From: Sulfurimonas indica
GTDB taxonomy: Bacteria > Campylobacterota > Campylobacteria > Campylobacterales > Sulfurimonadaceae
NCBI RefSeq assembly: GCF_009192995.1
Contig: NZ_SDID01000005.1
Location: 62,001 to 126,000 of the forward strand
DNA length: 64,000 nucleotides
Reading direction: 5' to 3'
The notes below the pieces were generated by a model. That model ran no database searches, was not told the DNA's origin, and saw only the letters and a program-made list of their open reading frames with translations. Positions 3,632-7,936 of the stretch are shown one piece after another (within the stretch, counting starts at the first letter, position 1; each line of letters begins with the position of its first letter). The position numbers and the translations under genes are program-made.

Positions 3632-5269
3632 TTATGCACCTGGAATAGTTTGTCTATGCTCGATAGAGTAAGTAAATGTTGGAGTTGTTAAACCTTTAAT
3701 ATATTTAACAAATTTTCCAGTTTTTGCTTCATAGATACCGATACGACCAGCATTCCATTCAGAAATCATAGTCCAGTGACCATGGTTTGCAGGTTCAGCA
3801 TGTAAGATTCTAGGAATTACAACTTTACCTTTTTTATCTTTAACAGTTGGTACTTTCCAGCTGTAAAGTACTTTATGAGTAACCGGATCGGTTACAGTAC
3901 CACGTTTTGTACCTACTGTAATGATTCTATCAACTTCTAAAGTTTGTTTGTTGATTAAGTGTACTTTATTCCAATTAGCAGGTCCACCAAGAACATTATC
4001 TGCCCAGATAAATGGAGTATGCTCACTTGTACCGACAAAAAGACCACCACCAGCAGTTCTTACGTTCTTAACAACATTCCAGTTTTTATCCCAGATAACT
4101 ACATTACCAACATTCATACTGTCTGTAGCAAAAAGTTGACCGTATTTGTCGTTATACCAAGATGAACCTTGACCTGGGTGTGGCTTAGAACCAGGACCAG
4201 TGTATACTTTAGCAACTAAAGATTTCGTTTTAAAGTCAACAACACCCATTACATCAGAACCTTGTGATGCAATAAAGAGATAGCGACCAAACTCATCACC
4301 TTCATTTAAAAGACCATCATGGAGGATTTTACCAATGTTTGGAATATCACCTACGATTGGGAAACCTTCTTTTGAATAGTCAACAATGTAAACATGCCCT
4401 GCATCTTTAAGTGCAAATGCAATGTATGGACCATATGGAGTGTCAAAAATACCAGCAACACGAGATGAACCAATGTTACCTTCCGTATCGATTACACTTG
4501 ATGTTGGATATACTTTAAGTGGTTCTAATGTCATAGCATCCATAAGTACAGCACCACCTGGAACGTAGTTACCAGCCATTAGGTATTTACCATCTGGTGA
4601 AACTGCAAGACCACGTGATTCAGAACCAACTTGACATTCAGCAATTTTTTGTTGACCCGGAGTGTTAAGATCGAACATTGTTACTAAACCTGAACGAGAG
4701 ATTGAATATGCATAACGAGGTTGACGCTTGTTCGTTACTGTTACGTGAACAGCAAACCCTGCAGGGTGTTTCGATAATACTTTACCACTTGTACCGTCTA
4801 TAAAAACAACACGAGCAGCATCACGCTCTGTTACGAAACAAATATCTGTATTTTTCTTAACATCTGCTGCGTGAGGATATTTTTTGAGGAATTTCATTCT
4901 GTCGTTAAGTTTTTTCCATCCTTTTTTTACATTCTCTAAAGTAAGAACTTCAATTTTCTTACCTTTAAAATGTTGTAGATAGTCAACCATCTTATCTGCA
5001 TCAGCTTTTGAAAACTTCTCTTTAAATTGAGGCATAGCTGTACCCGGACGTCCGTTAAGGATAGTCTCTGCTAACATATAAGAGTTTTTCTTAGAGATAA
5101 CTTTTGGACGTAAGTCAGAACCAACACCACCTTCATGGTTTGGACCGTGACATCCCTGACACTCTTTTTCAAATACTTTTTCCACATTCATATGTGATGT
5201 ACCCGCAAAAAGACCTGAACTTACAACTGCTAAAGCCGCAACTGACATAACTAATTTATTTAATCTCAT
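3632..5269 (-). CDS. nirS: Cytochrome cd1 nitrite reductase NirS
   Basis: This periplasmic enzyme reduces nitrite to nitric oxide using haem c and haem d1. The start at 5269 gives 545 aa. It is preceded by a good AGGAG, and the longer open frame adds 14 residues ahead of a normal Sec signal peptide (M-R-L-N-K-L-V to L-F-A). The c domain has C-Q-G-C-H near residue 37. The d1 propeller shows A-V-H-V-T-V for the proximal His, and L-H-D-G-L plus K-P-H-P-G-Q-G for the two active-site His. The domain order and length are standard. It follows the 50-aa gene in the same transcript as norCB. Confidence 0.96.
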   Translation of the reverse strand: MRLNKLVMSVAALAVVSSGLFAGTSHMNVEKVFEKECQGCHGPNHEGGVGSDLRPKVISKKNSYMLAETILNGRPGTAMPQFKEKFSKADADKMVDYLQHFKGKKIEVLTLENVKKGWKKLNDRMKFLKKYPHAADVKKNTDICFVTERDAARVVFIDGTSGKVLSKHPAGFAVHVTVTNKRQPRYAYSISRSGLVTMFDLNTPGQQKIAECQVGSESRGLAVSPDGKYLMAGNYVPGGAVLMDAMTLEPLKVYPTSSVIDTEGNIGSSRVAGIFDTPYGPYIAFALKDAGHVYIVDYSKEGFPIVGDIPNIGKILHDGLLNEGDEFGRYLFIASQGSDVMGVVDFKTKSLVAKVYTGPGSKPHPGQGSSWYNDKYGQLFATDSMNVGNVVIWDKNWNVVKNVRTAGGGLFVGTSEHTPFIWADNVLGGPANWNKVHLINKQTLEVDRIITVGTKRGTVTDPVTHKVLYSWKVPTVKDKKGKVVIPRILHAEPANHGHWTMISEWNAGRIGIYEAKTGKFVKYIKGLTTPTFTYSIEHRQTIPGA

Positions 5270-5326: not shown

Positions 5327-5479
5327 CTAATTTTCGTTTTCTAAACGTTTTTTCTCTTGGAAGTAGATCCAAATCATTGGAAGTACAATCACAGTGTGAA
5401 GAAAAATTGTTAGTGTTAAAGGACCTTGGTTGAGCCAACCGAAAAAGCTTGGCACAACGTCTGTAAATGGTTCAAACAT
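5327..5479 (-). CDS. 50-aa single-pass membrane protein between norB and nirS
   Basis: This is a small gene with ATG at 5479 and TAG at 5327-5329. Its AAGGAG (5490-5485) overlaps the norB stop codon at 5-nt spacing, so translation is coupled to norB. The product starts M-F-E-P-F-T-D-V-V-P and has one membrane span around residues 20-40 (L-T-L-T-I-F-L-H-T-V-I-V-L-P-M-I-W-I). It ends in a charged tail E-K-K-R-L-E-N-E-N, so the C-terminus is probably cytoplasmic. A His and a Pro lie within the span. I do not recognise the family. By position and size it could be a small subunit or assembly factor of the NO reductase, in the way CcoQ serves cbb3 oxidase. That function is inferred, not shown. Confidence 0.75.
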   Translation of the reverse strand: MFEPFTDVVPSFFGWLNQGPLTLTIFLHTVIVLPMIWIYFQEKKRLENEN

Positions 5480-5488
5480 TTTATCTCC

Positions 5489-6928
5489 TTATCTTTCGTG
5501 AACTGGGTTTTTCCCAGTTGTAAGTAAATCTTTTGCTAAGAATAAGAAACCTAAGAATGTAACAGTACCCATAATAAGTCTCCAATCCATTGCCTGTGCA
5601 AACCATAAACCACTTTGACCATCAAAGTATGCAGCCCACGTAGCACCCATTTGTGCACGAGATACCAATACTTGAACATAACCAGCGATTGTAAGTGCTA
5701 CAGTCATACCTACAACACCACCAGTAATTAAACTAACACCCCATAGAGAAGCTTTTGTATGTTTCATTACTTTGATGCCGTTTGTACCTTGAACTGCAAT
5801 GTACATCATACCAACAAGAATAGTCGCATATGCACCAAAGAATGCCAAGTGACCGTGTGCTGATGTAAACTGTGTACCGTGAGTATATAGGTTTACTTGA
5901 GGTAATGTATGGAAGAATCCCCAGATACCTGCACCTAAGAAGTTACCAAATGCATTAAGTACGAACCATGTAAATGCCGGTTTGTTTGTAATAACAGATT
6001 TAACATGAGCTTCATCTGTATGCTCATCTGCCATCTCTGCACCTTGCGTTTTACCCCAATCATAAAGAACGTGGATAAACATTGCAACAAGTGGTAATGG
6101 TTCTAGTGCTGAGAATAATGCACCGATTTCCCACCAGTACTCAGGTGTACCAATCCAGAAATAGTGGTGACCTAGACCTAAAATACCTGAACCAAAGAGC
6201 ATTGCAACTTCAATCCATAACCACATCTCAACAACTTTACGGTGTGCACCGATCATAGTGATAAGACCATAAGCAGCAATTGCACCAACAAATACTTCCC
6301 AAGTAGCTTCAACCCATAAGTGGATTACCCACCACCACCAGTATTGATCAATTGTAATGTTGTCAGTAAAGAACATACCAGCTAAATAAAGACCAGCAAA
6401 TGCAATCATGTCAGCCATTAAAACTGTTACGATTCCAGATTGTCTTCCTTTAATACCAGTAAGGAATAAGTTTGCAACAAATCCAAGAGCAACAACTACG
6501 ATTCCCCAGTCAGCCCAACGTGGAGCTTCAATATATTCACGACCTTCAGTAATAAACCAAATAGTAGTTGCATCTGCAGGACCGACTTGAATAAAAAGAT
6601 ATACAAGAACAACAACAACGATTGCAGCTGCAAAAATCCAGAAAAGGAGTTTACCGATCTTGATACCTACTGTCTCAATACCAGTCTCATCCGGTAACAA
6701 CCAGTAAACTGAACCAAACATTGCAAAGACCATCCATACAACGAGTGCATTAATGTGTAAGATTCTTGCAATAGAGAAGTCTAGAATTCCATAAAGAAAA
6801 CCAGGCATTACATATTGAATCGCTGCTACTAAACCAAAAAGTAATTGAGCACCAAAAAGAATAGCAGCAAAAGTAAAATACCATGTTGCTAACTGTTTTG
6901 ACTCTGATGTTAAATGATTATTTGCCAT
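5489..6928 (-). CDS. norB: Cytochrome c-type nitric oxide reductase, catalytic subunit NorB
   Basis: NorB reduces 2 NO to N2O in the inner membrane. Start 6928 (479 aa) is set by AAGGAGCAATCA before ATG; it overlaps norC by 11 bases. About twelve spans are present. Metal ligands are visible: His58 and His360 for haem b, His358 for haem b3, and His203, Glu207, His254 and His255 for the non-haem FeB site. The second-shell Glu276 is also present. Lack of the long N-terminal periplasmic extension of qNor, plus the adjacent norC, makes this a cNor. Confidence 0.96.
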   Translation of the reverse strand: MANNHLTSESKQLATWYFTFAAILFGAQLLFGLVAAIQYVMPGFLYGILDFSIARILHINALVVWMVFAMFGSVYWLLPDETGIETVGIKIGKLLFWIFAAAIVVVVLVYLFIQVGPADATTIWFITEGREYIEAPRWADWGIVVVALGFVANLFLTGIKGRQSGIVTVLMADMIAFAGLYLAGMFFTDNITIDQYWWWWVIHLWVEATWEVFVGAIAAYGLITMIGAHRKVVEMWLWIEVAMLFGSGILGLGHHYFWIGTPEYWWEIGALFSALEPLPLVAMFIHVLYDWGKTQGAEMADEHTDEAHVKSVITNKPAFTWFVLNAFGNFLGAGIWGFFHTLPQVNLYTHGTQFTSAHGHLAFFGAYATILVGMMYIAVQGTNGIKVMKHTKASLWGVSLITGGVVGMTVALTIAGYVQVLVSRAQMGATWAAYFDGQSGLWFAQAMDWRLIMGTVTFLGFLFLAKDLLTTGKNPVHER

Positions 6929-7571
6929 TGATTGCTCCTTGCATACGTCCAAAGTTTCTTGGGAAACCATTTGTATCTATAGACGACATATGTTTTAAAA
7001 ATGCAACCAAACCTTTTGCTTCCTCAGCTGTGATTCCTAAATCAGGCATCATACGAGCATGAGTTGGGAATTGGTCTGGATGTTGTAAGAATTCAGCCAT
7101 TGCCTCTTCTTTTGTATTTTTTCCAGTTAATGCTTGCATAGCTCCATCTGGTCCCCATGCCGGATCTAACCATGCTTTTGTTAAATCTGGTGCATAATAA
7201 GCTCCATTTCCAAGAAGTGTATGACAATCCATACAGTTTTTAGCCTGTGAACCTAGTTTACCTAAGTGAAGCAGAGCTCTCGCTTCTTCTTCTGACCAGT
7301 CATCACGACCAAAAAACTTCTCTTTTCCCCCAATTACTGGAACTTCATGACCACGTTTTGCGTCCATTTCATATGTAATCTTATAGTTAATAACTGTAGG
7401 TCCTGGAACCCTTTTTGTTACACCGTTTTTAAGGTCTTCATCATTACCCATTGCAATTTGAGCTGACGTATCAAACGTTAGCCAAATAAGTAGTATTGAT
7501 GCAAAACCTGTAACCCACGTTGCTGAACGTTGCCAGAAACGATTGTCACTCCATACAGATTTATTAGCCAC
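6918..7571 (-). CDS. norC: Nitric oxide reductase cytochrome c subunit NorC
   Basis: This membrane-anchored cytochrome passes electrons to NorB. The 217 aa show one N-terminal span (about residues 16-36), then a periplasmic domain with C-M-D-C-H at 113-117 and an A-R-M-M-P-D-L-G motif supplying the axial Met near 173. It is about 70 residues longer than the classical Pseudomonas NorC. The extra part lies between the anchor and the haem motif (roughly residues 45-105). It is followed by norB with an 11-base overlap. Confidence 0.93.
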   Translation of the reverse strand: MANKSVWSDNRFWQRSATWVTGFASILLIWLTFDTSAQIAMGNDEDLKNGVTKRVPGPTVINYKITYEMDAKRGHEVPVIGGKEKFFGRDDWSEEEARALLHLGKLGSQAKNCMDCHTLLGNGAYYAPDLTKAWLDPAWGPDGAMQALTGKNTKEEAMAEFLQHPDQFPTHARMMPDLGITAEEAKGLVAFLKHMSSIDTNGFPRNFGRMQGAINGK

Positions 7572-7609: not shown

Positions 7610-7936
7610 TCAATGTTCATTCTCTTCATGAACTTGATTTTGCATATAATAAACTGCGTATGGAAGTAATAACAATCCAATAGCAGCGACAACTAAAGCT
7701 TTTGCAGTAAAATCACCTACATGCATCAAACTTCCCATTAAATACAAACAATAGGCAGTTAGCATCCAAAAACTATAGGCTATAGTCATAGTCCATGGTT
7801 TAAGCAGTTTAACTTTTACTGCAGTATATATACCAACATAAATTCCTCCAAAAACTAACACAAGTGCAGATGAAATAAAGATAGGTAAGAAATCATCCAA
7901 TGCTATCTCCGGTCTAACAATTGATGGATCAATCAT
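7610..7936 (-). CDS. 108-aa multi-span membrane protein heading the nor-nir operon
   Basis: The protein is small and hydrophobic, with three clear spans at about residues 18-38, 48-70 and 80-98, and a charged C-terminal tail Q-N-Q-V-H-E-E-N-E-H. A His (M-H-V-G-D) sits between spans two and three. It is the first gene after the FNR-type box and 38 bases upstream of norC, with an AAGGAAA ribosome site before its ATG. I do not recognise a named family. Position suggests a role in NO reductase maturation or NO tolerance, comparable in placement to NorE/NorF but without visible homology. Function unknown. Confidence 0.75.
   Translation of the reverse strand: MIDPSIVRPEIALDDFLPIFISSALVLVFGGIYVGIYTAVKVKLLKPWTMTIAYSFWMLTAYCLYLMGSLMHVGDFTAKALVVAAIGLLLLPYAVYYMQNQVHEENEH

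Follow-up and report, generated by a model that had tools for sequence, protein, structure and literature searches.

A gene for a membrane protein of 50 amino acids (aa) lies between norB and nirS in a 64,000-nucleotide stretch of the Sulfurimonas indica genome (contig NZ_SDID01000005.1, positions 62,001 to 126,000; hereafter the window). With moderate confidence, its product is taken here to be an accessory subunit that belongs specifically to one lineage of cytochrome c-dependent nitric oxide (NO) reductase (cNOR), a lineage that is encoded by an operon of the order norH-like/norC/norB/50-aa gene and that appears to mature without NorQ and NorD. What raises the gene above an ordinary small open reading frame is its strict tie to this NorQD-free lineage of NO reductase. 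An earlier reading of the window from its letters alone (the sequence-only reading) had picked out the gene and proposed that it might encode a missing assembly component of either NO reductase or the nitrite reductase NirS.

Association with NO Reductase and Separation from NirS

Campylobacterota carry two cNOR lineages and a qNOR. The NorB lineage of the window is termed type-a (64–100% identity within the group); the second cNorB, 38–43% identical to type-a, is termed type-b. Among 397 Campylobacterota genomes, type-a NorB occurs in 73, all but one of which carry the 50-aa gene (72); in the 73rd (G305) the contig ends inside norB (L153, 7056 bases). The gene is found in 0 of the 324 genomes without type-a NorB, including those with only qNOR or type-b cNOR (three sub-threshold fragments among the 324 were scored as absence), that is, it is present in 72/72 testable genomes with this enzyme and in none of the others. 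As a rule there is one copy per genome, adjoining norB, and norB lies directly upstream in all 125 of the distinct loci that were compared after removal of duplicates.

The 50-aa gene and NirS separate in both directions, and for this reason the gene is assigned to NO reductase and not to NirS; the co-occurrence with nirS that is expected of NirS accessory proteins is not seen. One genome (G078, 96% complete) has the order norH-like/norC/norB/50-aa gene, lacks NirS, and carries the copper nitrite reductase NirK about 2 kb downstream (TIGR02376, E = 1.9e-137); in G076 and G296 the 50-aa gene is present and nirS is on other contigs. In 13 loci the slot beside the 50-aa gene that usually holds nirS is occupied by another NirS lineage. 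The NirS distance is doubled there (0.71 vs. 0.36), while that of the 50-aa gene shifts only slightly (0.33 vs. 0.25), which suggests that nirS was replaced within the operon in these loci. This other lineage is about 26–30% identical to the NirS of the window (e.g., L036:5150-6748 and L035:5687-7210), and norB is unchanged beside it. In the opposite direction, G012, G019, and G113 keep nirS and lack both this norCB and the 50-aa gene; in G053, norCB is gone and a decayed 50-aa gene remains beside an intact nirS. Deletions of norCB can be read at two loci: at L046:3850-5083 (-) intact nirS comes after a decayed 50-aa gene and what remains of a norH-like gene, and at L052:5368-7323 (+) a frameshifted norH-like remnant runs directly into nirS. 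Of the two partners proposed in the sequence-only reading, the tie to NO reductase is thus borne out by the constant position after norB and the co-occurrence with type-a NorB. A role in NirS assembly is contradicted by a gene that persists without NirS or with a foreign or distant nirS, and that is gone or decayed where only nirS is kept.

Conservation and Selection

In a first search of relatives from within the order, which covered 119 genomes of 34 genera, the protein was found in 56 genomes from 13 genera at 61–100% identity, one copy being decayed. In the 125 loci, the gap between norB and the 50-aa gene is 1–93 nt, save at one locus whose norB has an in-frame stop; the start codon is ATG in 121 and TTG in 4, and the protein is 47–59 aa long. 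In related loci a purine-rich ribosome-binding site stands before the start or before another ATG a short way upstream in the same frame. Frame, ribosome site, and protein are all conserved across these loci, and the reading frame is therefore far beyond chance. The median ratio of non-synonymous to synonymous substitution rates (dN/dS) is 0.125, and none of the 2786 usable pairs exceeds 1; norB has a median of 0.119, norC of 0.108, the 108-aa gene that precedes norC of 0.219, and nirS of 0.161. The 50-aa frame is a genuine gene, on which purifying selection acts as strongly as on norB; it has survived the check set for it by the sequence-only reading, in which loss of the frame or ribosome site in related genomes, or a high dN/dS, would have counted against it.

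The protein belongs to no family in Pfam, NCBIfam, or PHROG scans, and a sequence search of the PDB returned only chance matches to designed or unrelated helices. Two divergent members used as queries found no match in a collection of 72,556 plasmids, so no occurrence outside Campylobacterota was seen there. A scan of genome contigs gave 254 relatives; among the best 80 of these 254, none is titled as another phylum, and some are titled only "bacterium." No description of the protein was found in the searchable literature, a prior mention in Bricio 2014 or Appelgren 2025 being possible.

Anatomy and Topology of the Protein

The protein has one hydrophobic segment, at about residues 20–39. Its AlphaFold2 model consists of a short helix (residues 12–16) and a long helix (residues 20–49), with a mean pLDDT of 84.9 overall and about 91–96 over residues 21–50. 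The mean count of lysine plus arginine rises from 0.03 ahead of the helix to 3.71 behind it, an asymmetry that by the positive-inside rule places the N terminus outside. The protein is therefore predicted to cross the membrane once, N-out/C-in, with a charged cytoplasmic tail; hydrophobicity, model, and charge distribution agree on the single-pass topology that had been read from the sequence. Nine residues are invariant in the 125 loci (D7, P20, L27, H28, P34, M35, Y39, E42, and K43). The conserved residues T24, L27, H28, I31, M35, I38, Y39, and E42 lie on one face of the helix (moment test, p = 0.044), as expected for a helix packed on a partner. Cysteines occur in the N-terminal segment in 11 of the 125 loci, always two and never one, a pairing that would fit a periplasmic disulfide.

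A cNOR Lineage That Probably Matures without NorQ and NorD

Paracoccus cNOR requires both NorQ and NorD for the insertion of Fe_B (PMC9976466, PMC13036017); the NorB residue D220 has been proposed as a binding site for NorD, and its mutation leaves the enzyme inactive and with less non-haem iron (PMC9976466). The title of a 2025 paper, cited in PMC13036017, indicates that cNORs without NorQ and NorD are already recognised. In the two type-b operons that were examined, norCB is followed by norD, which encodes a VWA protein, and by the gene for an AAA+ protein of the CbbQ/NirQ/NorQ type. Among the 119 relatives, in counts made by hand, NorD is present in 14/14 type-b genomes vs. 0/47 genomes with complete type-a only, and NorQ in 14/14 vs. 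1/47, the single case being a 54% match in the NirK-carrying genome G078. NorQ/NorD genes and type-a-only genomes are thus almost mutually exclusive in this set, and no CbbQ_C domain was found in the window's own genome. The position of D220 is occupied by D in 14/14 type-b NorBs vs. 0/116 type-a NorBs, which have H, K, N, S, or R (the motif at this site in the window is GAHRKVVEMW); Thermus NorB has P. E222 is kept in 14/14 type-b and 36/116 type-a NorBs. Since type-a-only genomes lack NorD, and nearly all lack NorQ, and since D220 is lost, type-a cNOR very probably matures without NorQ and NorD.

Comparison with Known Small Subunits

The nearest relative of type-a NorB found outside the phylum is that of Thermus (52% identity), where the gene order is norC-norB-norH-nirS. 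According to PMC5748679, which cites Bricio et al. (2014), NorH is the third subunit of a Thermus NO reductase, the heterotrimer NorCBH. Like NorH, the 50-aa protein is a small membrane protein of the nor operon of this NorB lineage, encoded between norB and nirS; NorH, however, has 98 aa and is multi-pass, whereas the 50-aa protein crosses once. Profile comparison does not join the two (hhalign E = 0.71, one aligned column; BLASTP E = 2.2). The 108-aa gene upstream of norC, whose family comprises 108 distinct copies, does resemble Thermus NorH, at hhalign E = 1.5e-4 over 80 columns (NorF control, E = 0.51). It is a probable NorH homologue, and probable instead of proven because this is a single weak-to-moderate profile match. 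The 108-aa protein has no Pfam or NCBIfam family, and the NorH-like gene sits before norC, not after norB.

Small subunits that consist of a single helix occur widely in the haem-copper superfamily. Those of cbb3 oxidases, CcoQ/FixQ among them, resemble the 50-aa protein in being single-pass, about 50 aa long, and charged in the C-terminal tail, and in that their genes belong to the operon of a haem-copper enzyme; they differ in operon and partner, and the 50-aa protein has a conserved intramembrane His, Pro-Met, and Tyr. Neither the window protein nor any of 25 homologues matches Pfam FixQ at E ≤ 1, and the gene, always found after type-a norB, does not stand beside ccoO/ccoP. The likeness to CcoQ drawn in the sequence-only reading accordingly holds at most as an analogy of size, topology, and operon setting and fails as family membership. 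Comparison with NorF (81 aa, Paracoccus alcaliphilus) gave hhalign E = 0.32 over five aligned columns, and the protein was rejected as a NorF; an operon that does contain NorE/NorF (L173) also carries norQD, which the type-a lineage lacks. The earlier statement that no small cNOR subunit of this type had been described needs narrowing: NorH and NorE/NorF exist, but NorH matches the 108-aa gene and not the 50-aa gene. NorQ and NorD may serve the same need as the 50-aa protein, an active NorB loaded with Fe_B; they form a soluble AAA+/VWA machine of more than 800 residues, restricted in Campylobacterota to the type-b lineage.

Coordinates and Neighbourhood

The gene occupies exactly the position given in the sequence-only reading, which left the strand unstated, and its ribosome site does fall on the norB stop (Table 1). 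The reading frame runs from ATG to TAA and translates as MFEPFTDVVPSFFGWLNQGPLTLTIFLHTVIVLPMIWIYFQEKKRLENEN. The 3' end of norB reads ...CAC GAA AGA TAA GGA GAT AAA ATG, so that the ATG of the 50-aa gene is in the norB frame, one stop and three codons further on. The norB start was taken as MANNHL... at 6928, with another ATG upstream at 6970, and the 3' end of norC overlaps it. The order on the (-) strand is 108-aa gene, norC, norB, 50-aa gene, nirS, a cytochrome c gene, nirJ, a gene for a second d1-type protein, and one for a SUMT-type methyltransferase. Upstream of the norH-like gene, some loci encode a related protein that is about 120 aa long and has a hydrophobic segment at its N-terminal end [L034:2211-2576 (+) and L171:1791-2162 (+)]; it occurs in at least two families and matches no Pfam family above cut-off.

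Table 1. Positions of the 50-aa gene, its neighbours in the window, and two type-b operons used for comparison.
Feature	Position	Strand	Remarks
50-aa single-pass membrane protein gene	5327..5479	-	coding 5479-5330, stop 5329-5327
AAGGAG ribosome-binding site	5485..5490	-	overlaps norB TAA (5491-5489), 5 nt before ATG at 5479
norB, type-a cNOR catalytic subunit	5489..6928	-	Pfam COX1 E 3e-53; PDB 3o0r NorB E 3.5e-97
norC, membrane-anchored cytochrome c subunit	6918..7571	-	Pfam Cytochrom_C E 6e-7; adjoins norB in related loci
108-aa multi-pass protein, probable NorH homologue, upstream of norC	7610..7936	-	hhalign to Thermus NorH E 1.5e-4
nirS, cytochrome cd1 nitrite reductase, downstream neighbour	about 3632..5269	-	Pfam Cytochrom_D1 E 5e-63
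Type-b operon (second cNOR lineage, same genus)	L060:4503-8899	+	norCB then norD, norQ
Type-b operon (second cNOR lineage, same genus)	L056:2500-6866	-	norCB then norD, norQ

Discussion

If the 50-aa protein is an accessory subunit of type-a cNOR, it would be translated from the norB mRNA by coupling and would insert next to NorB, with the helix face formed by T24, L27, H28, I31, M35, I38, Y39, and E42 packing against NorB or NorC and the short periplasmic N-terminal segment, perhaps disulfide-bonded in some families, lying on the NorC side. There it may stabilise the complex, or may keep NorB iron-accepting and active in place of NorQD-driven remodelling. Several points weigh against this assignment. 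Judged by linkage alone, a stable subunit and a transient assembly factor look alike, and we infer the contact of the protein with NorB. The correlation of distance matrices is equal for NorB and NirS (r = 0.62 each) and does not separate the two as partners. An AlphaFold2 model of NorB fused to the small protein, built by reading through the in-frame stop in L137, folds in its NorB part (pTM 0.78) and leaves the small protein at pLDDT of about 41–65, and it is silent on docking. Finally, the 120-nt gap between norH and nirS in Thermus holds no counterpart frame of the gene, so the 50-aa protein is not a general requirement of the enzyme type and would then be an addition not seen in Thermus.

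The main rival to a stable subunit is a transient maturation factor that, together with the NorH-like protein, aids insertion of Fe_B or haem, H28 and M35 being possible contacts for metal or haem. The mutual exclusion of NorQ/NorD and type-a-only genomes, the loss of the NorD-docking residue D220, and the nine invariant residues, H28, M35, Y39, and E42 among them, are all compatible with such a factor, but the protein has no metal-binding motif beyond single residues, and we regard this role as possible though rather unlikely. A more specific proposal, that the 50-aa and NorH-like proteins form a minimal replacement for the ATP-driven NorQ/NorD, opening or holding NorB for Fe_B loading through the intramembrane His/Met face, is offered as a speculation that we would not expect to hold.

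The remaining explanations fare worse. Small single-pass proteins often serve several complexes, and the protein might be a broader helper of several haem proteins (e.g., cbb3 oxidase) that merely travels with norB; a gene that is never found without type-a NorB in the 397 genomes of the phylum, usually in one copy adjoining norB, makes this very unlikely. A partner of NirS, acting in maturation, anchoring, or NO channelling of the cytochrome cd1, would suit a gene with nirS immediately downstream in most loci and a protein whose N-terminal segment would lie on the periplasmic side, where NirS is active. It is largely refuted by the NirK genome without NirS, the 13 loci with another NirS lineage, the genomes with nirS on another contig, and the four nirS-keeping genomes in which the gene is absent or decayed, and is highly improbable. 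That the frame is only a translational coupling leader or regulatory micro-ORF with a functionless peptide might be supposed from its shortness and from the ribosome site on the norB stop; the leader peptide is refuted by conservation at the protein level, with amino acids under purifying selection like that on norB and nine of them invariant, and the gene is kept even in loci that lack a following nirS; the probability of a leader is negligible. An accessory subunit of type-a cNOR is the explanation that we favour.

Vents, redoxclines, and sediments are settings in which Campylobacterota act as major denitrifiers, and it is the NO reductase of these bacteria that determines whether NO becomes N2O. 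If the 50-aa protein is an unrecognised small subunit of this enzyme, preparations or expression constructs with norCB only may be incomplete. The type-a lineage is a natural test of how cNOR acquires Fe_B without NorQ/NorD, and with a simple profile, annotation pipelines could name the 50-aa gene and use it as a marker of type-a NorB.
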